Source of the DNA: Candidatus Zixiibacteriota bacterium
GTDB taxonomy: Bacteria > Zixibacteria > MSB-5A5 > GN15 > FEB-12
NCBI GenBank assembly: GCA_024278935.1
Contig: JAJRSF010000066.1
Coordinates: forward strand, 1-40,782
Direction of reading: 5' to 3'
DNA: 40,782 nt
Part shown: piece after piece, positions 5,124-35,115 of the stretch
Position numbering within the stretch: position 1 is the stretch's first letter
Layout: every line of letters starts with the position of its first letter
The notes under the pieces: generated by a model
The model's input: the letters and a program-made list of their open reading frames with translations, nothing else
Told to the model about the DNA's origin: nothing
The model's database searches: none
Position numbers and translations under genes: made by a program

Positions 5124-5833
5124 ATGAATAAACTTTGGATAGAAACCGCCAACCTGCTCCGTCATTACAAACGGGGAGCGTCAACTGTTAAAGCTGTCGA
5201 TGGTGTCGATTTACAAATTTACCAAGGGGAATACCTTGCTATCGTCGGCTCATCGGGGTCGGGTAAATCTACGATACTCAATATGCTCGCCGGCTTAGAC
5301 ACGCCAACAGGCGGAACGGAGCATGTTGACTCGGTAGACCTTTTTCAAATGTCTAAAAAAGAGATAGCATCATATCGTGCCGATAAAATTGGCATGGTCT
5401 TCCAATCGTTTAATTTGATTCCACATCACACCGCTTTATACAATGTTGAGATGGCTCTTTTTTTGATAACACTCCAAAAAATGAACGCAGTTCAAAAGCA
5501 ACCGCTATGCTTGAGTCGCTCGGCTTAGGTGAACGTCTTGACCACAAACCTTCCGACTTGTCGGGTGGCGAACAGCAAAGAGTCGCAGTAGCTCGTGCCT
5601 TGGTGAAAGAACCACAAGTGCTTTTTGCCGATGAACCAACCGGTAATTTAGACCAAGAGAACACTAACCAGATAGCCAAACTTTTTTCTGACCTACACAA
5701 TAAAGGTCTGACGATTGTTATCGTGACCCATGATTTGCAATTTGCCAAGGAGAACGCTGACCGTATAATCCGTATGGACTACGGTAAAATAGTTGAAGTG
5801 ATAAAAAACGGAGGTCGTAATGAATCTGCGTGA
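5124..5833 (+). pseudogene. LolD/MacB-type ABC transporter ATPase, split by a one-base frameshift
   Basis: The ATPase partner of the FtsX-like permease that follows. Piece one (5124-5528) has Walker A GSSGSGKST and the Q-loop VFQSFNLIP. Piece two (readable from about 5465, in the frame ending at 5833) has the signature LSGGEQQR, Walker B VLFADEPTG and the switch histidine in VTHD. Joined, they give about 236 residues, the normal length for LolD-like subunits. The frames meet at the run of seven T at 5458-5464. One more T, or a -1 slip on T TTT TTG (5459-5465), reads ALFFDNTPKNERSSKA and continues without loss. Without that, the product is 134 residues, lacks the signature and Walker B, and cannot hydrolyse ATP. 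The 3' end overlaps the permease gene by 14 bases, as expected of a functional pair, so a sequence error or slippage is as likely as real decay. Confidence 0.85.
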
Positions 5834-18567: not shown

Positions 18568-18924
18568 ATGGTTGCTGAATATTTATCGGTCTTAGTCTTT
18601 ATCTTTGTCGGAATTGGAATCGTTCTTTTTACGTTTTTCCTGTCAAAGCTCATCCGTCCTCATAATCCATATCCCAAAAAGAATGCCAACTACGAATGTG
18701 CTGAAGAGCCTATTGGTGATTCTTGGTTCCGATTCAATAACCGTTTTTATATATTTGCACTTATCTTTGTTATTTTTGATGTTGAAGCAGTCTTCTTGTT
18801 TCCATGGGCAGTCGCTTTTGGAGAACTTGGTTTATACGCTCTCATCGAAATGATAATTTTCATACTAATTCTATTCTTTGGTTTATTCTATGCCTGGCGT
18901 AAGGGAGCATTAAAATGGGTATAA
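18568..18924 (+). CDS. nuoA: NADH-quinone oxidoreductase-type subunit A
   Basis: First gene of an eleven-gene complex I operon. The 118-residue membrane subunit has three helices and the family loop NYECAEEPIGDSWFRFNNRFY, followed by FALIFVIFDVEAVFLFPW. The cysteine of the loop and the DVE of helix two are conserved. NuoA sits at the joint between the quinone module and the proton-pumping arm. The region of about 210 bp upstream, after the bc terminator, holds a TTGACA at 18484 without a clear -10 partner, and probably contains the operon promoter. The 3' end overlaps nuoB by 10 bases. Confidence 0.95.
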   Translation: MVAEYLSVLVFIFVGIGIVLFTFFLSKLIRPHNPYPKKNANYECAEEPIGDSWFRFNNRFYIFALIFVIFDVEAVFLFPWAVAFGELGLYALIEMIIFILILFFGLFYAWRKGALKWV

Positions 18925-19427
18925 TTAAGAAACTTCCGGTTTATTCGGAAAAAATCCCGGGCGGGGCTATTGTGACAACATCGGTAGAACAGGTGCTGAA
19001 TTTTGCGCAGGCAAAATCTCTCTGGTATCTGCTCTTTGGAACTGCTTGTTGCGCGATCGAACTTATGTGTACAGGAGCATCACGATACGATTTTGACAGA
19101 CTCGGTATGATCTTCAGAGCATCACCTCGTCAAGCCGATCTTATTATTGCTGCCGGTACAATTACGAAAAAGATGGCACCACGTCTTCGTACTCTCTACG
19201 ATCAAATGGCGGAACCTCGCTATGTTATCGCGATGGGTGGATGTACTATTAAAGGTGGTCCGTTCTATTATGATTCTTATTCAGTTGAAAAAGGTATCGA
19301 GCATATTATTCCTGTTGATGTTTTCATTCCGGGATGTCCGCCGAGACCTGAATCACTTCTTGAAGGTTGCTTAACATTACAAAAGCAGATTCAGCAACGC
19401 AAGCTAGGCGACTGGCAGGAAAAATGA
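18915..19427 (+). CDS. nuoB: Complex I subunit B (cluster N2)
   Basis: 170-residue peripheral subunit that holds [4Fe-4S] cluster N2, the last electron carrier before quinone. The ligands are the paired cysteines in GTACCAIELM, the cysteine in GGCTIKGG and the one in IPGCPPRPE. Residues around SRYDFDRLGM are also conserved. Length is typical. The nuoC start overlaps its stop (ATGA). Confidence 0.96.
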   Translation: MGIIKKLPVYSEKIPGGAIVTTSVEQVLNFAQAKSLWYLLFGTACCAIELMCTGASRYDFDRLGMIFRASPRQADLIIAAGTITKKMAPRLRTLYDQMAEPRYVIAMGGCTIKGGPFYYDSYSVEKGIEHIIPVDVFIPGCPPRPESLLEGCLTLQKQIQQRKLGDWQEK

Positions 19428-19894
19428 ACAACGAAGAACTAAAAGCATATATAGAATCTAACTATGCATCTCTTATGACTTTCTGTGAATCAGGTAAATA
19501 TGATTTGTGGTTTGAAGTAAAAGCTGATAATTTAGTCAGAGTTTGTCAAAAATTAAAAGATGATCCTGAGCTATTGATTGATTATTTCTGCAATCTTGGT
19601 GGTGTTGATACTACAGAAAATTTTGAAGCTGTATACAATTTAGCTTCCTCAAAGAAAAAAATTAGAATTGATCTTAAAGTTGTTCTCCCACATGAAAACC
19701 CATCAGTTGATTCGGTTCAGACGATATGGCCGGCGGCTAATTGGTATGAAAGAGAAATGTGGGAACTATATGGTATTCAGGTAAATAACCATGACAACTT
19801 GACTCGATTCCTTCTTCCAGATGATTGGGACCAAGGATATCCGATGAGAAAGGACTGGGACGCGCCTGATTTTATTCGTTTCCCTGACTTATAA
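19424..19894 (+). CDS. nuoC: Complex I subunit C
   Basis: 156-residue 30-kDa-type subunit, separate from NuoD (not a fused NuoCD). The hallmark block is at the C terminus: WPAANWYEREMWELYGI, then NLTRFLLPDDW and GYPMRKDWD. The start is the ATG overlapping the nuoB stop; an upstream in-frame TTG lies inside nuoB and is ignored. It packs against NuoB and NuoD in the connecting module. Confidence 0.94.
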   Translation: MNNEELKAYIESNYASLMTFCESGKYDLWFEVKADNLVRVCQKLKDDPELLIDYFCNLGGVDTTENFEAVYNLASSKKKIRIDLKVVLPHENPSVDSVQTIWPAANWYEREMWELYGIQVNNHDNLTRFLLPDDWDQGYPMRKDWDAPDFIRFPDL

Positions 19895-19896
19895 TA

Positions 19897-21000
19897 ATGA
19901 GTGACTTGAGAACTGAAGAATATGATCTGAATATGGGACCTCATCACCCGTCGACTCACGGTGTTTGCCGTTTGTTGTTGACGATGGATGGTGAAAGAGT
20001 TGTTAAAGTCGTTCCATATATTGGCTATTTACATCGTGCCATCGAAAAAATCTGTGAAAACAGATCCTATGCAATGTGTATACCTATGCTTGATCGGTTT
20101 GAATATGTAACTTCAATGTCTTGCAACCAGGTATTTTCACTCGCGGCTGAAAGGTTAGCAGGAATCGAAGTTCCTGAACGAGCTGAGTATCTCCGTGTTA
20201 TCATGCTTGAACTCAACCGTATCGCTTCGCATCTCATTTTCTTTGGAACTACTGCGATGGACATCGGTGCTTTGACTCCTTTCTTATATGCTCTTCGTGA
20301 ACGTGAAGATATTATTGACCTTTTTGAAATGACATGTGGACAAAGATTAACATACAATTATATTCGTATTGGTGGAGTATCAAAAGATATACCTGAAGAA
20401 TTTACACCTAGATGTCGTAAAACAATTGCTAATATCACTGAAAAAGTTGAAGAATATAAAAGACTTCTAAACGGTAACCCGATTTGGAAAATGAGAACTA
20501 TCGGTATAGGCAAACTTGATGCTGATCTTGCTTTAGCCTATGGTGCCTCGGGTCCTATTCTTCGTGCTTCAGGCGTTGACTATGATTTACGTCGTGATGA
20601 CCCATACTCAATTTATGATCGCTTCGATTTTAATATTCCAATATATCACAATGGTGATGTCTATGACCGTTACATGATTCGTCTTGATGAAATTCAGGAA
20701 TCATGTAAAATTGTCGGGCAAGCACTTGACAGTATAGTTGAAGGTCCTATTAAAGCAAAAGTATCACCGAATTTTAAACCACCGGCAGGTGAAACATATA
20801 CTCGTATTGAAAACTCTCGTGGTGAGATGGGTGTTCATTTAGTTTCTGATGGATCTAAAAAACCTTTCCGTTTGAAAGCTCGTGGTGGTTCATATCCTCA
20901 TCTGCAACTTCTCCCTGAAATTGCAACCAACTGTATGATCGCTGATTTAGTTGCGATATTTGCATCGTTTGATGTTATCCTTCCGGAGGTCGACAGATGA
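19897..21000 (+). CDS. nuoD: Complex I subunit D (49 kDa, quinone-binding)
   Basis: 367-residue subunit related to the large subunit of NiFe hydrogenases. The quinone-site hairpin NMGPHHPSTHGV is present with both histidines, followed by GYLHRAIEK and the ENRSYAMCIP region. The C-terminal block DLVAIFASFDVILPEVDR ends in the usual DxxR. Hydrogenase nickel-binding CxxC pairs are absent, so this is a true NuoD and not an Ech/Hyc-type subunit. The stop overlaps the nuoH start by four bases. Confidence 0.96.
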   Translation: MSDLRTEEYDLNMGPHHPSTHGVCRLLLTMDGERVVKVVPYIGYLHRAIEKICENRSYAMCIPMLDRFEYVTSMSCNQVFSLAAERLAGIEVPERAEYLRVIMLELNRIASHLIFFGTTAMDIGALTPFLYALREREDIIDLFEMTCGQRLTYNYIRIGGVSKDIPEEFTPRCRKTIANITEKVEEYKRLLNGNPIWKMRTIGIGKLDADLALAYGASGPILRASGVDYDLRRDDPYSIYDRFDFNIPIYHNGDVYDRYMIRLDEIQESCKIVGQALDSIVEGPIKAKVSPNFKPPAGETYTRIENSRGEMGVHLVSDGSKKPFRLKARGGSYPHLQLLPEIATNCMIADLVAIFASFDVILPEVDR

Positions 21001-22049
21001 TCGCAATCGGAATTACAGTTGCCTTAACAGAACTGCTCGGTTCGTTTGGTTTATCCGGCGGTTTACTCTCTGTCATTACATATACAATTTTAGCAGCCGG
21101 GACTTTTGGTCTGCTTTCTGTACTGGCTCTTTTCTTAGTATGGTGGGAAAGAAAAGTTGCCGGTCATATGCAACAACGGTTTGGTCCTATGCGTAATGGT
21201 TGGCATGGTTGGTACCAAACTTTGATGGATGGTTTAAAACTTCTGCAAAAAGAAGATATCTTAGTTGCCACTCGTGACAAAGTTGTCTTTTTCTGGGCGC
21301 CGGTTATGTGTTGTATCGCTGCCTTTGCGGCATACATTGTTATTCCGTTTGGTGATGGTCTTATTGTTGCCGACTTAAATATTGGCGTTCTCTATATAAT
21401 GGCGATCACAACTTTTACTGTCATCGCATTGCTTATGGCAGGTTGGGGTTCCAACAATAAATATGCACTCTTAGGTGGCATGCGTTCGGCGGCACAAGTT
21501 GTCTCGTACGAAGTACCAATGGTCGCATCGATTTTAGTTGTTGTCTTATACGCCGGTTCACTTTCGACTGTTGATATTGTTAATTCGCAATCCGGTAATT
21601 TTTTAAACTGGAATATATTTAGACTACCATTCGGACCTATCGCATTCATAACATTTTTAATCGCAGCAGTTGCCGAAGCAAACCGTACACCATTTGATCT
21701 TGCTGAAGCCGAGCAGGAACTTGTTGCCGGTTTTAATATCGAATACTCCGGTATGAAATTTGCGATGTTCTTCTTAGCCGAATTTATCAATCTCTTTACC
21801 GTCTCCGCTATTACTGTTATTTTATTCTTAGGTGGATGGCACGGCTTTGCTTTTATCCCAACATTTGTATGGTTCTTTATGAAAACTTTTGCGATTGTCT
21901 TTTTACTGATTATGGTCAGATGGACATACCCTCGTATGCGTGTTGATCAGCTTATGGAATTTGCATGGAAAGTTTTAGTTCCGATTACATTTTTAAATAT
22001 TATCGTAGCGGCTATTTTTAAACACTTTGGCTGGTACTGGGAGTTATAA
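20997..22049 (+). CDS. nuoH: Complex I subunit H
   Basis: 350-residue membrane subunit forming the quinone channel with NuoB and NuoD. Family blocks: WWERKVAGHMQQRFGPMRNG, GLKLLQKED, the acidic loop NRTPFDLAEAEQEL, and the arginine/tyrosine pair in RWTYPRMRVDQLM. About eight helices are seen. It follows nuoD directly; the usual nuoG gene, which normally lies between D and H in full operons, is missing. Confidence 0.96.
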   Translation: MIAIGITVALTELLGSFGLSGGLLSVITYTILAAGTFGLLSVLALFLVWWERKVAGHMQQRFGPMRNGWHGWYQTLMDGLKLLQKEDILVATRDKVVFFWAPVMCCIAAFAAYIVIPFGDGLIVADLNIGVLYIMAITTFTVIALLMAGWGSNNKYALLGGMRSAAQVVSYEVPMVASILVVVLYAGSLSTVDIVNSQSGNFLNWNIFRLPFGPIAFITFLIAAVAEANRTPFDLAEAEQELVAGFNIEYSGMKFAMFFLAEFINLFTVSAITVILFLGGWHGFAFIPTFVWFFMKTFAIVFLLIMVRWTYPRMRVDQLMEFAWKVLVPITFLNIIVAAIFKHFGWYWEL

Positions 22050-22052
22050 AGA

Positions 22053-22640
22053 ATGCTTGACTATATTAAAGGATTTATTGAACTGATAAAAGGTCTCGGG
22101 ATTACCGGGAAACATCTTGGTATGCATGCCGTTACTTTACAGTATCCTGAAGAAAAAGATGTTATGCCGGAACGCTCACGTGGTGTTGTGGTTCTGCTCT
22201 CTGATAAAGAAGACGGCTCTCTGAATTGTACTGGCTGTTTACTTTGTATGAAAGCATGCCCGACGGCGGCAATCATTATTGATGCACCAAGAGGTGAAGA
22301 TAAAAAGAGAGTACTTAAAAAATTCGAACTTGATTTTACTCTCTGCTGTTATTGTGGATTGTGCGAAGAAGCGTGTAATTTCTCTGCTTTAAAACTAACC
22401 GGTAAATATGAATACTCGACAGGTGATAAAGATGACTTGCTTTGGGATGTTAACAAACTGCAGGATGTTGGGCGTGATGTTGACTACGAAGACAAACGTC
22501 GGAAAAAAGTAGCCAAGAAACCGGCTAAGCCGGTTGTAGATGCTAATGCTAAAGTTGAAGATAAACCAGCGAAAGCTGTAGAAATTAAACCGACAGAGTC
22601 GGCGGATGATACAAAACCAAAAACCGAGGGAGAAGCATAG
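22053..22640 (+). CDS. nuoI: Complex I subunit I, ferredoxin-like, with long charged tail
   Basis: 195-residue subunit carrying two [4Fe-4S] clusters (N6a/N6b), ligated by CTGCLLCMKACP and by CCYCGLCEEACN; the second motif has N instead of the usual P after its last cysteine. In the absence of NuoE, NuoF and NuoG these clusters would be the electron entry point, possibly for ferredoxin. Residues from about 148 to the end are a low-complexity K/A/P/E-rich tail (RRKKVAKKPAKP, then DKPAKAVEIKPTES) that normal NuoI proteins lack. The tail might bind an electron donor (inference). Confidence 0.94.
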   Translation: MLDYIKGFIELIKGLGITGKHLGMHAVTLQYPEEKDVMPERSRGVVVLLSDKEDGSLNCTGCLLCMKACPTAAIIIDAPRGEDKKRVLKKFELDFTLCCYCGLCEEACNFSALKLTGKYEYSTGDKDDLLWDVNKLQDVGRDVDYEDKRRKKVAKKPAKPVVDANAKVEDKPAKAVEIKPTESADDTKPKTEGEA

Positions 22641-22645
22641 CAATT

Positions 22646-23248
22646 ATGGAATTTTTTGATAAAATAATTGAACTTATTGTAGCAGCTCCTGGAATTATAT
22701 TTACTGAACTCTCCACTCGACCTGTCTTCTGGCTTTTGTCTATGATGATGTTAGTCTCAGGGTTTCTGGTCGTCACTCTTAAAAATATCTTTCACTCCGC
22801 AATTTATCTGATCCTTTGTCTTTTCTCTGTTGCCGGTCTGTTTATTTTACTCCAAGCAGAATTTTTAGCCGCCGCACAGGTGCTTATATATGTCGGAGCA
22901 GTTGCGATTCTTATGATATTTGCGATAATGCTCTCGACCAATGTCTCCGGTAATAAAAGAATGACTACTCAAAACGGTCTGCCGGTTTCTATAATCTCAG
23001 CAGTCTTTGCTTTAGGAACTATCTCTTTTATTATTATGACAAAACTAAATGTTGTCATTAAAAATCCAGAGGGTGTCATTACCAAAGGTCTTTGGATTGG
23101 AAGTAAAGGGGAACTACCATTGGATAATATTATGTTGATTGGTAAATATATCATGACAGAATATATGCTTCCGTTTGAAGTTGTTTCGGTTCTGCTACTG
23201 GCTTCCATGATTGGTGCTATTGCTTTAGCAAGAAAGGAACGGTCATAA
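22646..23248 (+). CDS. nuoJ: Complex I subunit J
   Basis: 200 residues with five hydrophobic helices. The conserved segment is EFLAAAQVLIYVGAVAILMIFAIML in helix three, whose pi-bulge links the quinone cavity to the pump arm. A periplasmic loop (NPEGVITKGLWIGSKGELP) and a final helix (VVSVLLLASMIGAIALARK) are typical. It begins 5 bases after nuoI. Confidence 0.94.
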   Translation: MEFFDKIIELIVAAPGIIFTELSTRPVFWLLSMMMLVSGFLVVTLKNIFHSAIYLILCLFSVAGLFILLQAEFLAAAQVLIYVGAVAILMIFAIMLSTNVSGNKRMTTQNGLPVSIISAVFALGTISFIIMTKLNVVIKNPEGVITKGLWIGSKGELPLDNIMLIGKYIMTEYMLPFEVVSVLLLASMIGAIALARKERS

Positions 23249-23249
23249 T

Positions 23250-23549
23250 ATGGTTGCTTATCTTTCTGTTGCTGCCGTGCTATTTTCATTAGGTCTTTTT
23301 GGAGTGTTAACTCGCAGAAATATTATCGGTATTCTGATGTCATTAGAACTGATGTTTAACGCTGTGAATATAAATCTCGTAGCATTTAATAAATTTGTCT
23401 GGCCGGGTGAATTAACCGGTCAATTGTTTTCCCTGTTTATAATTGTTGTTGCCGCCGCCGAAGCTGTTGTCGGACTCGCTATTGTTCTTCTGCTCTATCG
23501 CAACTGGCAAGATATTACTAATGATAACATAAATGTGCTGAAGTGGTAG
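23250..23549 (+). CDS. nuoK: Complex I subunit K
   Basis: 99-residue, three-helix subunit homologous to MrpC. Two buried glutamates of the proton path are visible: in LMSLELMFNAVNINL and in AAAEAVVGLAIVLLLYR. The length is exactly typical. The start is one base after the nuoJ stop. Confidence 0.95.
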   Translation: MVAYLSVAAVLFSLGLFGVLTRRNIIGILMSLELMFNAVNINLVAFNKFVWPGELTGQLFSLFIIVVAAAEAVVGLAIVLLLYRNWQDITNDNINVLKW

Positions 23550-23558
23550 GATAGAAAA

Positions 23559-25637
23559 ATGACCGAACATGCATATCTTATAGTTTTACTCCCGCTCTTC
23601 TCATTTTTAACAATAGTTTTTGCCCTCCGTTGGAAAGAACAAGTATCGGCAGTTTTCTCAGTTGGTATGATTGCGACATCACTTATAATGTCTATCATGG
23701 TTCTCATAGAAACTTTGGGACACCAAGGCGACTATTACGCCGCCGCTTTTTCAATCGTAGAACTGGGTGCTTTTAAATTACAACTCGGAATGTTGATTGA
23801 CCCGCTTACGGCGATGATGCTTGTTGTGGTAACTTCGATTGGTACCTGTGTTGAGATTTATTCTATCGGATATATGAAAGATGATCCTCGGTTCAGCAGG
23901 TTCTTCGCTTACCTTTCTCTCTTCTTGTTCTCAATGCTCGGTTTAGTGATTTCTGATAATTTCTTTATGACATTTATATTCTGGGAACTTGTAGGCTTAA
24001 CATCATATCTCTTGATTGGTTTCTGGTTTGAGAAAAAATCAGCCGCTGATGCCTGTAAAAAAGCGTTCCTTACGACACGAGTGGGTGATTTAGGATTTAT
24101 CGTCGGCTTATTGATGATAATGTATTATTGCGGAACATTTAATTACGCCGAAGTATTCACTATGATCGGAGCCGGAGCGGTTCCATCCGGGATTGTTACA
24201 ATCCTCGCCATTGGCGTCTTCTGTGGTGCTGTTGGTAAATCAGCACAGTTCCCGCTTCATGCCTGGCTTCCTGATGCAATGGAAGGTCCTACACCAGTCT
24301 CGGCGATTGTTCACTCGGCTACCATGGTAGCGGCAGGTGTTTATTTAGTCGCTCGTACAATGTCAATTTTTATTGCCTCGGCTGAGGCTTCTATGGTAGT
24401 TGCGGTAATTGGAATAGCGACATCTTTGATGGCGGCAACGATTGCACTTGTGCAAGTTGATATAAAACGAATTTTAGCTTACTCAACAATTTCACAACTC
24501 GGCTATATGATTATGGCACTCGGTCTCTATGGTGTTGATACTGCCAACGGACATCATTCTCCTGGATTCTACGCCGGTACGTTCCACTTAATGACACACG
24601 CATTCTTTAAATCGCTTCTCTTTATGGGTGCAGGTTCGGTTATCCATGCTGTGCATACCAATGACATTATGGAGATGGGTGGTCTTTGGAAAAAAATGAA
24701 ATATACTGCACCGGTGTTTTTAATCGGTTCACTTTCTATTGCGGGTTTCCCTCTTACTTCGGGCTTCTTCTCTAAAGATGAAATTGTCGCAACAACATTT
24801 GGACATCCTGTTTTCACTGTCCTAACTTTACTTATCGCATTCATGACAGCATTTTATATGTGGCGTTTATGTTTCCTTACTTTCTTTGGCGAACCACGGG
24901 TTGCCCATCGTTATGAACATGCTCACGAATCTCCAAACACTATGACATATCCGTTGTTCTTCCTAGCCTTCATGGCGATCTTCGCCGGTTGGACAGGTAT
25001 CCCAGCACTCAAACATGGCTTCGCATCATTTGTCGCTCATGGTGAAGGGTATGTTCCGCATGCTGACTGGGTCAACTATATCGTTTCATCTATTGTAGGA
25101 CTAAGTGGTATCGGGTTAGCATATCTGATGTACATAAAAAAATCTATCTCTGCCGATAAAATTGCTGAAAAATTTAAACCACTTTATAATCTCTTCTGGA
25201 ATAAATGGTATTTCGATGAAATTTATCAAGCTGCTATCATTGACCCAATTATGACTTTTGGTCGTTGGATGTGGACGTTTGATGGAAAAATTATTGATGG
25301 TGCCGTTAATGGAATGGCTACCCTTACTATGTGGTGGGCGGATGTCAAGATGTGGATTGACAAGTGGATTATCGACGGTGCCGTAAATGGCGCCGGATTT
25401 ATTGTTCGCATGGCTGGGTCTGTGTTGAAATATTTACAGACCGGTCGCATGCAGTTCTATCTTATCTTAAGTATGATATTAGTAATCGTAATGATATTGT
25501 TAAAATTTGAAATTGCTCACATTAATATTGAATGGCCATCGATGACTGTAATATTTATTATTGCTGTTTTAGCACTATCGATAGCATCACGATTTGTTTC
25601 TGAAGATGCAAATCAGGAGTCCGAAAATGAAAAATAG
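23559..25637 (+). CDS. nuoL: Complex I subunit L (antiporter-like proton pump)
   Basis: 692-residue distal pump subunit. The key glutamate is in FWELVGLTSYLLIGFW, and the lysine paths are in KKAFLTTRVGDLG and GKSAQFPLHAWLPDAMEGPTP, followed by SAIVHSATMVAAG. The C-terminal lateral-helix region is present (WNKWYFDEIYQAAI). Two copies of IIDGAVNG near residues 572 and 603 suggest a small internal duplication there. NuoL is somewhat longer than the E. coli form. Confidence 0.96.
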   Translation: MTEHAYLIVLLPLFSFLTIVFALRWKEQVSAVFSVGMIATSLIMSIMVLIETLGHQGDYYAAAFSIVELGAFKLQLGMLIDPLTAMMLVVVTSIGTCVEIYSIGYMKDDPRFSRFFAYLSLFLFSMLGLVISDNFFMTFIFWELVGLTSYLLIGFWFEKKSAADACKKAFLTTRVGDLGFIVGLLMIMYYCGTFNYAEVFTMIGAGAVPSGIVTILAIGVFCGAVGKSAQFPLHAWLPDAMEGPTPVSAIVHSATMVAAGVYLVARTMSIFIASAEASMVVAVIGIATSLMAATIALVQVDIKRILAYSTISQLGYMIMALGLYGVDTANGHHSPGFYAGTFHLMTHAFFKSLLFMGAGSVIHAVHTNDIMEMGGLWKKMKYTAPVFLIGSLSIAGFPLTSGFFSKDEIVATTFGHPVFTVLTLLIAFMTAFYMWRLCFLTFFGEPRVAHRYEHAHESPNTMTYPLFFLAFMAIFAGWTGIPALKHGFASFVAHGEGYVPHADWVNYIVSSIVGLSGIGLAYLMYIKKSISADKIAEKFKPLYNLFWNKWYFDEIYQAAIIDPIMTFGRWMWTFDGKIIDGAVNGMATLTMWWADVKMWIDKWIIDGAVNGAGFIVRMAGSVLKYLQTGRMQFYLILSMILVIVMILLKFEIAHINIEWPSMTVIFIIAVLALSIASRFVSEDANQESENEK

Positions 25638-25664
25638 TAGTTTGATTCTGGAGGTATACAGATA

Positions 25665-27146
25665 ATGATTTTAAGTTCACTGATATTTATTCCTATTATC
25701 GGCATGATAATAGTGATGCTTCTTCCTAAAGAGAAAGAAGATCTCATACGTTATACAGCGGTTGGAATTTCTATTATACCTATGCTGGTTTCGTTTTGGC
25801 TCACCTATGATTATTTTGTAAACTTTTCCGGCTCTGCTGCGATGGCATACATGGAAGGTCCCTTCTCGTGGATTCCTTCATTAAATGTAAACTATCATTT
25901 AGGCGTTGATGGTATTTCTGTTCCGATGCTAGCTTTAACCGGGTTACTTACTACGATTTCTCTGATCGCATCGTTCTCTATTAAATTCCGTATTAAAGAA
26001 TACTCTGCTTTCTTCTTACTACTTGAAGCAGGCATGATGGGTGTATTTGTAGCTTTAGATTTCTTCCTCTTTTATGTCTTCTGGGAAATCATGTTAGTAC
26101 CTATGTATTTCTTAATCGGTGTTTGGGGTGGACCAAGAAAAGAATATGCTGCTATCAAATTCTTCCTCTACACATTATTCGGTTCGATCTTTATGCTTGT
26201 AGCGATTTTAATAATGTACTTTACATCGGATCCGCACACTTTAAATATGCTCGAACTTATTGAACATGGCGGAACACTTTCGTATACCCTGCAGATGGTC
26301 TGTTTTATCTTCTTCTTTATTGCTTTTGCTATTAAAGTTCCGGTCTGGCCGTTCCATACTTGGCTTCCCGATGCTCACGTGCAGGCTCCTACCGCCGTTT
26401 CAGTTATTCTTGCTGCCGTACTCTTAAAAATGGGTACCTATGCTATGCTTCGTATTAACTGGCCAATGTTCCCTGATGCTCTTCATTCGTTATCATTTTG
26501 GATAGCACTCTTAGGTGTTATCGGAATTATATATGGTGCCTTGGTTTCTTTGGCACAAAAAGATTTGAAAAAACTGGTCGCTTATTCATCGGTATCTCAT
26601 ATGGGATATTGTATGTTGGCACTGGCTGCTTATAGTTCGACAACTGCCATGGCAGGTGTCATGTTCCAAATGATCTCTCATGGTTTAATCACCGGTGCAT
26701 TATTCTTAATGGTTGGTGTCCTTTACGACAGAGCGCACACTCGTGAAATCGCTGCCTTTGGTGGCTTGGGTGCCAAACTTCCGGTGTATACTGCTTTGAT
26801 GCTGATGTTCTCAATGGCGGCATTAGGACTTCCGGGAATGTCAGGCTTTGTAGCTGAATTTATGATTTTTGTTGGTGCTTTCTCACAACTCAATCAGTAC
26901 TTAGTTGGTATTTCAGTCTTGGGTGTGGTCTTAGGTGCTGCTTATATGCTCCGCATGTTCCAAAATGTTTTCCTTGGCGAATTCAACATGGCCAAATGGG
27001 GTCACTTAACAGATATTAATGGTCGAGAACTTTTGATGGTTGTTCCGCTTGCGGTTTTAACTCTCGCTGTTGGTATCTATCCAAAACCTCTGACAGATTT
27101 AATGTCAGCTACTTTAGAAAACTTAGTTCAGATAATGTCAAGGTAA
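25665..27146 (+). CDS. nuoM: Complex I subunit M (antiporter-like proton pump)
   Basis: 493-residue subunit with about 14 helices. Glutamate in FWEIMLVPMYFLIGVWGG and lysine in KVPVWPFHTWLPDAHVQAPT are conserved, as is LLKMGTYAMLR. The quinol-side VAYSSVSHMGYC element is typical. GGAGGT lies 10-15 bases before the ATG. The gap to nuoL (27 bases) is the largest in the operon. Confidence 0.96.
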   Translation: MILSSLIFIPIIGMIIVMLLPKEKEDLIRYTAVGISIIPMLVSFWLTYDYFVNFSGSAAMAYMEGPFSWIPSLNVNYHLGVDGISVPMLALTGLLTTISLIASFSIKFRIKEYSAFFLLLEAGMMGVFVALDFFLFYVFWEIMLVPMYFLIGVWGGPRKEYAAIKFFLYTLFGSIFMLVAILIMYFTSDPHTLNMLELIEHGGTLSYTLQMVCFIFFFIAFAIKVPVWPFHTWLPDAHVQAPTAVSVILAAVLLKMGTYAMLRINWPMFPDALHSLSFWIALLGVIGIIYGALVSLAQKDLKKLVAYSSVSHMGYCMLALAAYSSTTAMAGVMFQMISHGLITGALFLMVGVLYDRAHTREIAAFGGLGAKLPVYTALMLMFSMAALGLPGMSGFVAEFMIFVGAFSQLNQYLVGISVLGVVLGAAYMLRMFQNVFLGEFNMAKWGHLTDINGRELLMVVPLAVLTLAVGIYPKPLTDLMSATLENLVQIMSR

Positions 27147-27152
27147 GAGAAG

Positions 27153-28673
27153 ATGAATCCGCAATTACCAATAGTAGATCTACTTGAAACTCTTCGGTTA
27201 ATGCTACCGGAACTGTTCCTCTTTTTGTGGGCATTAGTTGTTATCACTGTCGATCTCTTTTCATCTCGTAAAAATGATTCACTGGTTGGCTATACTGCTT
27301 TGGCAGGTATTGTTATTACCGGTGTGTTGCTTACTATCGCAGGTGATGGGGTCGCATTTGGAGCGATGTTTGTGAACGATCCATTCTCATTCGCCTTTAA
27401 GATTATTTTCTTAGGTACGGCGTTTATGGCTGTCGGCTCATCGTTTGGAATTACTAAACAAAAAATACAAAACCATCGTGGTGAATTTTACGGATTAATT
27501 CTTTTTTCCACTGTTGGTATGATGTTCTTGGCATCATCACATGAATTGGTATCACTCTATATCGGTTTAGAACTTACAACGATTCCACTTTTTGTCTTAG
27601 CTGCTTTTTATAAAGATGATAAAATGTCAGTCGAGTCAGGTATAAAATATTTTGTCATCGGTGCTTTTTCATCGGCAATGCTTTTATATGGTTTCTCATT
27701 CTTATATGGAATGACCGGTACGACCAACTTGGGTCAAATGTCTTTTAACCTTGCTGCGAATCATATAGCTCACCAAAGTTCTGGCTTTGTGATGATTATA
27801 GCCAATGTAACTATCTTGGCAGGTATTGGTTTCAAATTATCGCTACCACCATTTCATCAATGGGCTCCCGATGTATACGAAGGTGCTCCGACTCCGGTTG
27901 CGGCATTTTTGTCAGTTGGTTCCAAAGCGGCAGGGCTTGTTGCTTTCACAAAAATTTTCTTAATCGGTTTATGGGGTTATATTTCAATCGAGATGACTCC
28001 AAGTGATTGGGGACTGATGGTCGGCGTCATGTCTGCTGTTGCGATGATTATTGGTAACATCGTTGCGATTAGACAAACAAATATCAAACGTATGCTGGCA
28101 TACTCATCTATCGCTCAAGCAGGCTATATCATGATTGGTATGATTGCCTTAAACGAGCATGGTATCTCGTCGGTTGTCTTTTATACTTTTGTATATCTCT
28201 TTGCCAACATGGGTGCCTTTGCATGTGTGACTATATTTGAAGATAAAACAGGTACTACTGAAATAGCAAATTACAAAGGACTGGCACAGACATCACCATT
28301 CTTTGCGGCTCTGCTTGCTATATTTATGCTCTCACTTGCCGGGATACCTCCGCTTGGTGGATTCATGGCGAAGTATAAAGTCTTTGCGGCAGGTATTAAC
28401 CAAGCCTCGGCATTTAATGTTGATTGGTTGTACTGGCTTGTTGGTGTCGGACTGCTGACATCGGTATTCTCTCTCTACTATTATGTAAATGTTATTAAGC
28501 AGATGTATTTCACAAAAGATGCATCTATTTATAAAATGACATTTAATCCTCCGGTTTTAACTGTTCTCATTATTTGTTTTGTTGGTATTATGGTAACCGG
28601 TATCTACCCGGAACCTGTATTTGAATTTGCCAATAAAGTTTATTCTACTTTTGCTTTCTCTATCTTAAAGTAG
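27153..28673 (+). CDS. nuoN: Complex I subunit N (antiporter-like proton pump)
   Basis: 506-residue pump subunit next to NuoK. Family blocks: LYIGLELTTIPLFVL (glutamate of TM5), FKLSLPPFHQWAPDVYEGAPTP and SVGSKAAGLVAF, then RMLAYSSIAQAGYI. It is the last gene of the operon. No nuoE, nuoF or nuoG follows; the next gene has its own promoter. Confidence 0.96.
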   Translation: MNPQLPIVDLLETLRLMLPELFLFLWALVVITVDLFSSRKNDSLVGYTALAGIVITGVLLTIAGDGVAFGAMFVNDPFSFAFKIIFLGTAFMAVGSSFGITKQKIQNHRGEFYGLILFSTVGMMFLASSHELVSLYIGLELTTIPLFVLAAFYKDDKMSVESGIKYFVIGAFSSAMLLYGFSFLYGMTGTTNLGQMSFNLAANHIAHQSSGFVMIIANVTILAGIGFKLSLPPFHQWAPDVYEGAPTPVAAFLSVGSKAAGLVAFTKIFLIGLWGYISIEMTPSDWGLMVGVMSAVAMIIGNIVAIRQTNIKRMLAYSSIAQAGYIMIGMIALNEHGISSVVFYTFVYLFANMGAFACVTIFEDKTGTTEIANYKGLAQTSPFFAALLAIFMLSLAGIPPLGGFMAKYKVFAAGINQASAFNVDWLYWLVGVGLLTSVFSLYYYVNVIKQMYFTKDASIYKMTFNPPVLTVLIICFVGIMVTGIYPEPVFEFANKVYSTFAFSILK

Positions 28674-30288: not shown

Positions 30289-31278
30289 ATGAAGTATATT
30301 AATAAAGCAATAGGCATATTATTATTTCTTCTATCATTTTCATCTGTCCTTCAAGCTGATTTAATGATTGGTGATTCAACAGAAATTATTTTTGCATCTA
30401 TTGATAAAGGGCGTGAGATAATTTCGGCAAAAGATGATTATATAACACGATTGAGTCCATTTGACCGCTCGGCCAAAATGAAGACTGATAAACTTGTAAC
30501 TGAGAGAGAGTTTAGAGACTTTTTGGGTAATAATGTTCTTTTGTGGCAAACAGATGAAATAGAAAGATTAACTAAAGCACTCAATAAAATAATAGAACCG
30601 GTTAAGTCTTTGGGTTTGCCATTTCCATCTCAGATTTACATTATAAAAGTTACTGGAAATGAAGAAGGTGGGGCTGCTTATACAAGAAGTAATGCAATTA
30701 TGTTAAGCCCTGAGTATTACTCTAAGGATAATGATGTCTTGTTACATTTAATCTGTCATGAACTTTTTCATATTCTTACAAGATCAATGCCTGAGCTTCA
30801 AGAAGAACTTTTTTCAGTAATTGGTTTTACAAAATGTAATGAAATTGAATTTCCTATTGAATTAACTACTCGAAAAATAACAAATCCAGATGCTCCTAAA
30901 AACGATCATTATATTCTGTTGCAAGTTGATGGGAAAGAGTGTATGGCAGTACCAATCTTATTTTCAGATACCGAAAATTACAGCCTTACTCGTGGAGGTG
31001 AATTTTTTAATTACCTCCAATTTGAGCTTCTTCAAATTGAACAAGATGATAATTTGAAAACAATGAAACCAGTGTATGATGATAAAAAACTAAAATTTAT
31101 TGATATGCGTAAAGCAACCGGCTTCTTTGAACAAATAGGGATGAATACAAAATATATCCTTCATCCTGAAGAAATTCTTGCTGAAAATTTTGCACTCCTT
31201 GTGTTGGATAAACAAGGGCTTAGGTCACCAGAAATTATCAATAAAATTAAAGTAGTATTGAATAAATATAAAATGTAG
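30289..31278 (+). CDS. Secreted zinc metallopeptidase (HExxH), family unassigned
   Basis: 329 residues. A signal peptide (NKAIGILLFLLSFSSVLQA) precedes a domain with the zinc-binding motif HELFH (157-161) in LLHLICHELFHILTRS. A glutamate in HPEEILAENFALLV (about 294-299) is a plausible third ligand, as in gluzincins. No other family signature is obvious. A ribosome site is weak, and it begins 6 bases after the EIIA-CBS stop, so it may belong to that transcript. Substrates are unknown. Confidence 0.75.
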   Translation: MKYINKAIGILLFLLSFSSVLQADLMIGDSTEIIFASIDKGREIISAKDDYITRLSPFDRSAKMKTDKLVTEREFRDFLGNNVLLWQTDEIERLTKALNKIIEPVKSLGLPFPSQIYIIKVTGNEEGGAAYTRSNAIMLSPEYYSKDNDVLLHLICHELFHILTRSMPELQEELFSVIGFTKCNEIEFPIELTTRKITNPDAPKNDHYILLQVDGKECMAVPILFSDTENYSLTRGGEFFNYLQFELLQIEQDDNLKTMKPVYDDKKLKFIDMRKATGFFEQIGMNTKYILHPEEILAENFALLVLDKQGLRSPEIINKIKVVLNKYKM

Positions 31279-32013: not shown

Positions 32014-32652
32014 ATGTCTAAATTCAAAAACTTGTTTGAATCGATGTATGTGAAAGTTATTTTTATTGCTGTAACTCTCTTTATAGGTATATCTTCAGGC
32101 ATTTATGTCGGTTATGCATACATAGGAGCTAATGGTGAAGCAGTGAGTGACAATAATGCCACTACAGAAACTCATGGTGATCATTCTAATGGTGAGGGAA
32201 TTGATTTAGATGAACAATTTGTAAACTTTGGTGCTGGTGACTTATTCCCTTTAGAATCCTATGTTGATAAAAATAATAATAAAGGAAATTTTGAAAACCT
32301 TCTACAAAATAAAGCAACAATCTTTTTGTTTGTAAGTTTGACATGCACACCATGTCACGATATGCTTTTGTATTGGAATTTGAATATACAAGATAAGCTT
32401 AATAAAGATGTTCAAGTTGTTGTCTGTTTGCGGGAGAAAGATGGGGAGGTCCCGGTAGAGTTTATGGGGTTACTTGAAAACAAACAACTCGTTTTCTTTG
32501 ACGGAGATCATTGGAGTCTTCAATACGACATGGCTTTTTGGCCGACTATAATTGCGGTGGATGAAAGTGGTTTCGTTCGTAAAGTGCAATTAGGCTTTGA
32601 AAATTATATCCATTATGACATCGCTAATTACTTTTTTGTGCAAAATAAATAA
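32014..32652 (+). CDS. Membrane-anchored thioredoxin-fold protein with CTPC motif
   Basis: 212 residues: N-terminal anchor helix (VIFIAVTLFIGISSGIYVGYAYIG), a His/Asn-rich linker and a thioredoxin-like domain outside the membrane. The redox motif is C111-T-P-C114 in LFVSLTCTPCHDM, at the end of the first strand as in TlpA/ResA proteins, and a cis-proline is in FWPTIIAV. ATG 32014 follows GGGAGA; the in-frame TTG at 32002 is rejected. It is the nearest gene to the ten-cysteine secreted peptide 90 bp downstream and may reduce or oxidise it (inference). Confidence 0.8.
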   Translation: MSKFKNLFESMYVKVIFIAVTLFIGISSGIYVGYAYIGANGEAVSDNNATTETHGDHSNGEGIDLDEQFVNFGAGDLFPLESYVDKNNNKGNFENLLQNKATIFLFVSLTCTPCHDMLLYWNLNIQDKLNKDVQVVVCLREKDGEVPVEFMGLLENKQLVFFDGDHWSLQYDMAFWPTIIAVDESGFVRKVQLGFENYIHYDIANYFFVQNK

Positions 32653-32742
32653 ATTAGTTATAAGTTAATTGTTACTTTTTGGCCAAAGTAATTTAAACTG
32701 TAAGAGCTCTACACTCAAATGGATTTGAGAGGAGGTGAATTT

Positions 32743-33021
32743 ATGAAAATGTCCAAAATTCTTATGATGGTTTTTACATTTAGCTTTTTAGTAGGTATAG
32801 GTTTAATCTCTATTGCTCCTGCTACAGTACAAGCTGATGTTAATCCATGTTCTAATGATTGCTATATGATTAGCTGTTATTTTGATGCAAGTTGCAATCC
32901 TGTAACAGAAAGAATGCATCAAAAATGCTATCCGAGTGCTTTGGTGGCAAATCCTTGTCGAAGTCTTTACAACTGTACTTGTGTTGACATTGGTTGTGGA
33001 CCACTTTGTTTCTCTCTATAA
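32743..33021 (+). CDS. Secreted cysteine-rich peptide (ten Cys)
   Basis: 92 residues. A signal peptide (KILMMVFTFSFLVGIGLISIA) is cut after about residue 30 (VQADV). The mature ~60 residues contain ten cysteines at 36, 40, 45, 51, 62, 72, 78, 80, 85 and 89, an even number fit for five disulfides or a metal-binding site. I recognise no family. ATG 32743 has an excellent Shine-Dalgarno, GAGGAGGTGA (32729-32738), stronger than most in the window, suggesting high expression. The upstream in-frame ATG at 32719 has none. The neighbour upstream is a thioredoxin-fold protein; a small hairpin (32672-32691) lies between them. It ends before a terminator. Confidence 0.75.
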   Translation: MKMSKILMMVFTFSFLVGIGLISIAPATVQADVNPCSNDCYMISCYFDASCNPVTERMHQKCYPSALVANPCRSLYNCTCVDIGCGPLCFSL

Positions 33022-33048
33022 TAACATCACTGTCGTTATTAAAGATAT

Positions 33049-33080
33049 AGGCAAGAGCTAAACGCTCTTGCCTTATTATT
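33049..33080 (+). terminator. Rho-independent terminator after the cysteine-rich peptide
   Basis: AGGCAAGAGC (33049-33058), loop TAAAC, GCTCTTGCCT (33064-33073), then a T-rich tail. Confidence 0.85.
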
Positions 33081-33254: not shown

Positions 33255-33830
33255 ATGGATATTAAAGAGACTAAGGGGGATAATGCTAAAATATATTTTG
33301 TGAGTGCATTACTTGCGATAATAATTTTTATTATCGACTTGGAACTCCCACTTGGCGTTGCCGGTGGTGTACCTTATGTTATGGTGTTACTATTTACTCT
33401 TTGGTCCTCTAAAAAATCTATCACAATTCATTTTGCTATTATTTGTTCAGTTCTTACAATAATCGGTTTTTATTTCTCACCTTCCGGCGGTGAAGAGTGG
33501 AAAGTGCTGACAAACCGCATTTTGGCTCTATTTGCTATTTGGATAACAGCTATCCTTACTTTACAAAGAAAAGAAATTGAAAAAAACAGAGAAAAATATT
33601 TTTTGGAAAAAGAAGAAGCGTTCGCAAAAATAAAAATTCTCCAAGGTATTATTCCTATCTGTGCCGGCTGTAAAAATATCAGAGATGATAAAGGGGCATG
33701 GAGTCAAATGGAACTCTATGTGAGAGAAAATTCCGAAGCAGATTTTAGTCATAGCATGTGTCCCGACTGTGTCAAAGAACATTATCCCGAATTGGAATGT
33801 TCCACCGGTAAAACTGTTTCTGCAAAGTAA
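33255..33830 (+). CDS. Four-TM membrane protein with CxxC...CxxC tail, probable sensor
   Basis: 191 residues. Four hydrophobic helices (about 13-29, 34-50, 56-74, 88-104) resemble a small MASE-like membrane sensory module. A charged helix (RKEIEKNREKYFLEKEEAF) follows, then the tail IIPICAGCKNIRDDKGAWSQMELYV with a second CxxC in SMCPDCVKEHYPEL. The tail (C136, C139, C169, C172) is a recognisable module often placed after PAS or receiver domains in environmental bacteria; four cysteines suggest zinc. No kinase or cyclase domain is present. Signal and output are unknown. Confidence 0.75.
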   Translation: MDIKETKGDNAKIYFVSALLAIIIFIIDLELPLGVAGGVPYVMVLLFTLWSSKKSITIHFAIICSVLTIIGFYFSPSGGEEWKVLTNRILALFAIWITAILTLQRKEIEKNREKYFLEKEEAFAKIKILQGIIPICAGCKNIRDDKGAWSQMELYVRENSEADFSHSMCPDCVKEHYPELECSTGKTVSAK

Positions 33831-33862: not shown

Positions 33863-33891
33863 TTGACAATCTCGTCGAAAGTCCGTACCCT
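33863..33891 (+). promoter_or_regulatory. Candidate promoter for the exchanger gene
   Basis: TTGACA (33863-33868), 17-base spacer, TACCCT (33886-33891). It shares TTGACAATCTC with the promoter at 28689. It would give a very short leader (start codon at 33902). Confidence 0.35.
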
Positions 33892-33901
33892 AATCTTAAT
33901 T

Positions 33902-35115
33902 ATGTCGCATCAAAGAGAAAAATACAAAATCACGCCTGGTATTTATATTACCCTGATAATTGCAATTGCCTGCTCACTTCCGGGGCTTTATAACGGGTTT
34001 TCCCATGGACATTTATCACCGATTCTTGGTGTTTTCTTTTTTGGTGTTGCGATTTTTGCCGCCGCCTTTATGTTGTCATGGGCAGCCGAAGTTGTTCAGA
34101 TTGATATCTCCGAATCTCTGGCGGTTGCCATTCTCGCCCTGCTTGCGGTCTTACCTGAATATGCTGTCGATTTTGTTTTCACATGGAATTCCTATGGTGA
34201 CACTCCCGAAGCAATAGCCTCGCATCATTACGCTATTGCAAATATGACCGGTGCCAACAGGCTTCTGGTCGGTTTGGGATGGCCGTTTATTCTCTTTTTA
34301 TATGTCTATGTAAAACGGAAAAAAGAGATTGTCTTAGATCAAATCCAACGGGTTGACTTTTCTATCTGCTACTTGCATCATTGTATTCGATTACTATCCC
34401 GCTTAAGGGAGAGCTGAACCTTATAGACACTATCATCTTGGTGACTCTCTTTGGAGTGTATACTCGTCGTGCGGCACAGATGGAGACCGAAGAACCGGAA
34501 ATAGTCGGACCACCAAAACTTATCGCAAATATGCAGGATTTACCGCGTCGTATTACTACCGCTATTTTGTTTCTCTTCTCTGGTGGTGTTATCTTTTTTG
34601 TCGCCGAGCCGTTTACCGAATCACTGATACATCTTGGGGAAGCATATGACATTGACAAATTTCTGCTTGTCCAATGGCTTGCTCCGATAGCATCGGAATC
34701 GCCCGAATTTATTATCGCTGCGACATGGACAATGCGAGGTGCCGCGAACTCTGCTATCAAAGCACTGATCTCTTCAAAAGTGAACCAATGGACTTTACTC
34801 ATCGGAACTATACCGCTTGTCTATGCGATCTCCGGTGGTGTTATCGAACCGTTTGTGCTTGACAATAAACAACATCAGGAAATTTTGCTCACCGCTGCTC
34901 AATCTCTGTTTGCGGTGCTGATTATGATGAACTTAAGATTTACAAAAACTGAAGGCTATCTGTTGCTTATACTCTTTTTAGCACAGATGATTGTTGAGTC
35001 GATTCGATTTGAGATGATGATTGTCTATTTGGTATTAGCAGTGATTGTAGCTATTATGCATCGTAAGGATATTTTGCCTGCCGCGAAATTCGCTTTAAAC
35101 ATCAAGAAAAAGTAA
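33902..35115 (+). pseudogene. Sodium/calcium exchanger-family (CaCA) protein, frameshifted
   Basis: Cation antiporter-like membrane protein with about ten helices when both frames are joined (~404 residues). Piece one (33902-34417) includes a first alpha-repeat-like segment with LLAVLPEYAVDFVFTW. Piece two (frame ending at 35115) has the second, QWLAPIASESPEFIIAATWTMRGAANSAIKAL. The break is at the short T run 34358-34361. With one added T the protein reads VDFFYLLLASLYSITIPLKGEL and continues smoothly into the second piece. Unshifted, piece one ends in a 20-residue unrelated tail. ATG 33902 (SHQREKYKITPGIY) is preferred over the TTG at 33863. The stop lies inside the first 53-nt repeat. Confidence 0.8.

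Follow-up and report, generated by a model that had tools for sequence, protein, structure and literature searches.

To our knowledge, oxidoreductases dedicated to one secreted peptide are known only in scattered operons. In the MauD/MauE system a dedicated thioredoxin-like protein serves an exported, Cys-rich protein that contains many disulfides, the small subunit of methylamine dehydrogenase (MADH). The NVEALA peptides of Bacteroides lie beside genes of the TlpA family, an association used here as a lead only. Sublancin carries a double-glycine leader, and its oxidoreductase BdbB is not TlpA-like. The sublancin operon of Bacillus subtilis (sunA-sunT-bdbA-sunS-bdbB) encodes an oxidoreductase together with a small secreted peptide, and this oxidoreductase forms the peptide's disulfides (PMC6391423). 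Among thioredoxin-fold proteins, SdbA of streptococci catalyzes disulfide bonds in secreted proteins (PMC5112981).

The window analyzed here is a 40.8-kb stretch of DNA (40,782 nucleotides, contig JAJRSF010000066.1) from a Candidatus Zixiibacteriota bacterium, in which the gene of a TlpA/ResA-like thioredoxin is followed, after a gap of 90 nt, by that of an exported, ten-cysteine peptide (Table 1). The two genes probably constitute a dedicated oxidoreductase-substrate module, wherein the membrane thioredoxin forms or corrects disulfides in the neighboring peptide or, in relatives, peptides. The initial annotation of this DNA had described an anchored CTPC thioredoxin-like domain, a 92-residue exported peptide with ten cysteines, the strongest ribosome site of the area and a terminator, and each of these was borne out on re-analysis: the coordinates of both genes are right, the hydrophobic N-terminal helix of the enzyme is confirmed, and exactly ten cysteines follow the signal of the peptide.

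Table 1. Positions of the module in the window and of the longest peptide array in a relative
Feature	Position	Strand	Basis	Remarks
TlpA/ResA-like thioredoxin-fold protein	32014-32652	+	ORF and model	212 aa
Shine-Dalgarno of peptide gene, AGGAGGTGA	~32731-32739	+	anti-Shine-Dalgarno match	just 5' of the ATG at 32743
Exported peptide	32743-33021	+		92 aa; signal residues 1-31 (...ATVQA), ten Cys in the 61 residues that follow
Intrinsic-terminator-like hairpin, 3' of peptide gene	33049-33073	+		10 pairs, 6 G-C
L152 array (G022:C3)	L152:10420-13514			one thioredoxin gene followed by seven Cys-rich peptide genes in tandem

The enzyme belongs with the TlpA/ResA-like proteins by its thioredoxin fold, CxxC motif, cis-Pro proline and N-terminal anchor. 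Its structural model has a single hydrophobic membrane helix at residues ~11-40, a disordered linker (40-67) and then the thioredoxin domain, where pLDDT is mostly above 90; the predicted topology places the CxxC domain outside the membrane, anchored at its N-terminus. The CTPC motif occupies residues 111-114, and Cys111, Cys114 and Pro177 (of the cis-Pro region) are invariant in related thioredoxins. The nearest PDB structures to the model are of the DsbE/TlpA type, ResA, SdbA and Etrx2 (Z 14-15.5 over ~135 residues, 16-20% identity), and sequence-profile matches reach E values as low as 1.7e-07. The gathering cut-off of Redoxin (PF08534) is passed (30.2 versus 26.6 bits), which says little on function since that superfamily is broad. 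An assignment to ResA proper (NF002854) was rejected, with 15.4 bits against a curated cut-off of 170. Among the paired thioredoxins described below, the commonest CxxC motifs are CEPC, which is the ResA motif, CPPC and CQPC.

All ten cysteines of the peptide (residues 36, 40, 45, 51, 62, 72, 78, 80, 85 and 89) lie past the signal. Its Shine-Dalgarno is a perfect 9-nt anti-Shine-Dalgarno match, the longest among 23 window starts compared (the runner-up has 6), and the terminator stretch folds 6 s.d. below its own shuffles. When the window was scanned for ORFs of 40-170 aa with a signal and a Cys-rich composition, the only further ORF returned was one overlapping the cytochrome b gene. The structural model of the peptide, in which strands are predicted at 56-64 and 78-87, reaches only moderate confidence (pLDDT 77, pTM 0.44); Foldseek gave no known fold below E 3.5, which with a model of pLDDT 77 proves little. 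There was no match to the peptide among PDB sequences, nor any Rfam match at the locus.

Several other features of the window are recorded for completeness. Just past the terminator, a membrane protein (33255-33830) has a C-terminal CxxC...CxxC arrangement (ICAGCKNIRDDKGAW...MCPDC) and no Pfam family above cut-off. Beyond it, a pair of ORFs (33863-34417 and 34381-35115) that overlap in different frames resemble halves of one membrane transporter, possibly through a frameshift or sequencing error, and an ABC-transporter ATPase at 5124-5528 ends early (134 aa) ahead of a permease gene at 5820, again with a possible frameshift. Upstream of the module, an exported protein with an HExxH motif (CHELFH; 30289-31278) is a putative metallopeptidase. 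Complex I genes A to N, with E, F and G not between them as judged by ORF reading only, occupy 18568-28673 and are preceded by a cluster with Rieske/cytochrome b and multihaem cytochromes.

Linkage of the two genes has been followed across the phylum. A starting search of 146 genomes with both window proteins returned adjacent pairs in G022 (at two sites, one of which has two peptides), G052 and G042. The flanks of nearly every thioredoxin relative hold a small exported Cys-rich ORF; most such peptides were missed by sequence search because they are too unlike one another. A profile built from 15 thioredoxins matched in 69 of 132 genomes of the phylum, and in an initial set of 62 thioredoxins, each flanked by 400 nt or more on either side, a candidate peptide within 1.3 kb was present on the enzyme's own strand in 55, versus none (0/62) on the opposite strand. 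All 16 of the best-scoring thioredoxins of this set with enough flank have a peptide, and two seemingly peptide-less loci (L069, L072) proved to carry a four-Cys version.

A wider set, including weaker relatives, comprises 89 distinct thioredoxins of 150-310 aa from 61 genomes, with the peptide sought on the same strand within 400 nt. By this measure 73 have an adjacent peptide, which lies downstream in 62 and upstream in 11, at a median gap of 61 nt, and these pairs are spread over 56 genomes of several families and orders, so that the pairing read at first from a single locus does recur in relatives. Five of the 16 thioredoxins lacking a peptide stand at a contig end (L031, L101, L113, L119, L122), and approximately eleven with enough flank lack one by the criteria used; L039 (200 bits), without a peptide of its own, is the first of two tandem thioredoxins, the peptide coming after the second. 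In control TlpA-like proteins of other phyla, a comparable ORF was found at no more than 1 of 31 loci, and that one is a different-looking 138-aa protein. The difference between 73/89 and <=1/31 gives a Fisher p of ~1e-15, a count uncorrected for the shared ancestry of the genomes. Similarity of the enzyme is also correlated with that of the nearest mature peptide (Mantel rho 0.26, reached by 0 of 500 permutations), as is expected of partners, though simple vertical descent of the gene pair would produce the same correlation.

That a generic TlpA protein happens to stand beside an unrelated small gene has a negligible probability. Its one point of appeal is the patchy presence of the pair within the genus, where close copies are lacking from the three other genomes: two of them (G002, G003) have no match and the third (G001) a distant version only (L117). 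Chance adjacency is rejected by the same-strand linkage throughout the phylum, without a single opposite-strand case, and by the controls from other phyla. It also sits poorly with a second, unlike pair in the genome from which the window comes (G000:C54, L108), made up of a CEPC thioredoxin and a 63-aa six-Cys peptide of another type. The most widespread recurrent neighbor of the pairs is an exported protein, presumably dockerin-like, which, as far as can be told, has no specific tie to the pair.

What the peptides have in common is their architecture and not their sequence. A short, basic N-terminus leads into ~20 hydrophobic residues, in which G-x-G and a proline are often present; these run up to an A-x-A-like end, and a further 30-70 residues follow. 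They fall into ~45 to 64 similarity clusters. None of those tested against Pfam and NCBIfam reaches a cut-off, weak matches to DUF1335, DUF6234, actinodefensin, Toxin_21 and others all being below it; a match to a known unrelated family, which would have undone the first reading of the peptide, was thus not found in Pfam, NCBIfam or the PDB. Mature parts average 15% Cys, 10% Gly, 10% Pro, 7% Tyr and 2% Lys, with a net charge of ~ -3; they contain little His (1.6%) or Met (1.3%), and Phe, Trp and Tyr together make up ~11%.

Among 81 peptides, 77 have an even cysteine count (4, 6, 8, 10 or 12) and 4 an odd one; with one vote per similarity cluster, 51 are even and 2 odd. Cysteines are also lost or gained in pairs. 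The two eight-Cys peptides of G042 are without both counterparts of window C62 and C80, residues that would come to lie opposite one another in an antiparallel pairing of the predicted strands 56-64 and 78-87, and members 5-7 of the L152 array have two extra cysteines (at the signal end and in a loop), both of which are missing in members 2-4. The even number and the paired changes favor disulfides over metal binding, and the cysteines of the peptides are accordingly read from their sequences as probably disulfide-bonded.

Two other uses of the cysteines deserve mention here. The peptide might be a small redox partner of the thioredoxin, an electron shuttle whose cysteines cycle between thiol and disulfide. 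Tight pairing and an even cysteine number would fit such a role, for which a conserved active pair is to be expected; spacings and numbers instead vary widely and the peptides diversify in arrays, making a shuttle very improbable. The strong ribosome site, suggesting more peptide than enzyme, also speaks against it without deciding the matter. Alternatively, the peptide might bind copper, zinc or iron through its cysteines while the TlpA-like protein maintains its thiols in the reduced state for loading, just as proteins of the TlpA/ResA type do for copper or haem sites. The TlpA/ResA/CcmG-type fold of the enzyme and the many CxC and CxxC spacings in the peptides are in keeping with metal loading. 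Metal sites have no need of evenness, which holds here whatever the total; spacings are not conserved between peptide families, and CxxCH occurs once in the 81. The composition is unlike that of metallothioneins, and a metallothionein-like candidate (aromatic-poor and Cys-only in composition) was rejected on the aromatic and Cys contents given above.

The supply of redox equivalents was also surveyed, and as a reducing supply it too is in keeping with the metal-binding reading. DsbD/CcdA-type membrane proteins are encoded in 59 of 61 genomes, including that of the window, whereas DsbB was found in 0 of 41 and VKOR in only 2 of 61, so that no known source of disulfides was detected. With an electron source nearly universal and DsbB and VKOR nearly absent, reduction or isomerization fits better than oxidation. 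The thioredoxin may be fed electrons and act as a reductase or isomerase, or thiols may be oxidized by a route that these models miss; a TlpA-like fold does not exclude oxidation, since the structural neighbor SdbA forms disulfides. On cysteine parity, spacing and composition, metal loading is judged improbable. Of the two products offered in the initial annotation, a disulfide peptide is favored and a metal binder disfavored. Its proposal of an oxidoreductase and substrate fares well as to the pairing and the disulfides, and we infer from the sequences that the enzyme acts on the adjoining peptide.

In some relatives a single thioredoxin gene is accompanied by an array of up to seven peptide genes (for example L152, L092, L094, L098 and L159). 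The L152 signals are nearly identical and the mature parts diverged (dN 0.21 versus 0.60). A general pattern like that of conotoxins, in which a conserved leader precedes a hypervariable mature part, was rejected, the signal being closer than the mature part in only 24 of 43 within-array pairs. Diversification in the arrays suggests a repertoire that faces varied targets. Two genomes of one genus have among their peptide arrays a protein with ATFSIVAHDSATGELGIAVASR (L158:11319-12350 and L159:5100-6176), which we take to resemble DUF1028.

As to the role of the product, and compatibly with a dedicated module, the peptides could be antagonistic in the manner of bacteriocins, with the thioredoxin as maturation enzyme as BdbB is for sublancin. 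The paralogues, the faster mature part in L152 and the existence of bacteriocin operons with dedicated oxidoreductases (PMC6391423) agree with this. Positive selection is unsupported in L152 because dS is saturated in the mature part, and the mean charge and low Lys content are not those of cationic peptides. No recurrent exporter, transporter, protease, modifying enzyme or immunity gene was found beside the pairs, although an immunity gene may lie at a distant site. A classical bacteriocin is disfavored by the acidic composition and by the lack of both an exporter and an immunity gene, and an antagonistic role is judged unlikely.

The module favored here, of enzyme and disulfide-bonded substrate, would work as follows. 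A TlpA/ResA-type thioredoxin would be anchored in the inner membrane, its CxxC domain lying on the outer side. The small peptide would be exported by its ordinary signal peptide and cleaved at the A-x-A-like site, whereupon the thioredoxin would form, reduce or reshuffle peptide disulfides until the correct knot is reached (five bonds from ten cysteines). The mature peptide would then function, either in the periplasm or beyond the cell, as a compact disulfide domain that withstands proteases. One enzyme would, in relatives, serve an array of different peptides. A more far-reaching proposal, which is tentative and somewhat doubtful, is that secreted disulfide-knotted peptides form a diversifying repertoire throughout the phylum, similar in style to the disulfide-peptide families of animals or plants, with each peptide folded by a membrane thioredoxin of its own that is linked to it; this would amount to a separate disulfide route without DsbB or VKOR and a new class of exported peptides.

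Systems of an oxidoreductase and a disulfide peptide are as such already known, BdbB and sublancin being an example (PMC6391423). What seems new to us is that the arrangement extends over a phylum, that its enzyme is TlpA-like, that its many peptide families are database orphans and that known disulfide sources are nearly absent. Recurrence of the pairing with very different peptides across the phylum points to a hitherto undescribed system that produces secreted, disulfide-knotted peptides. Nothing relevant on a thioredoxin-peptide pairing of this kind was found in a literature search that covered only a minority of subscription papers, and there was no mention of NVEALA in the literature searched. 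The pairs represent a large, as yet unexplored reservoir of disulfide-rich peptides from bacteria, and they raise the testable question of how disulfides form in bacteria with no detected DsbB and nearly no VKOR.

In comparison with the described systems, the NVEALA peptides (PF14055) are likewise small, signal-bearing and Cys-containing, but PF14055 had no match in 21 genomes of the group or in any of 19 peptides, while a control Bacteroides genome was positive. From MauD/MauE the locus differs in that no MADH large subunit or MauE was noticed beside the pair, and the window peptide is about half as long as the MADH small subunit, to which it is unrelated by Pfam and NCBIfam. With the sublancin operon it has in common an oxidoreductase gene stably linked to a peptide gene; it differs in lacking a leader-peptidase exporter and a glycosyltransferase, and in that the peptide bears an ordinary signal peptide rather than a double-glycine leader. 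The enzyme itself is like TlpA, ResA, StoA, CcmG (DsbE), Etrx2 and SdbA in thioredoxin fold, CxxC motif and membrane anchoring, and it is set apart from the TlpA/ResA group by being tied to genes for small Cys-rich peptides instead of cytochrome c or sporulation genes.
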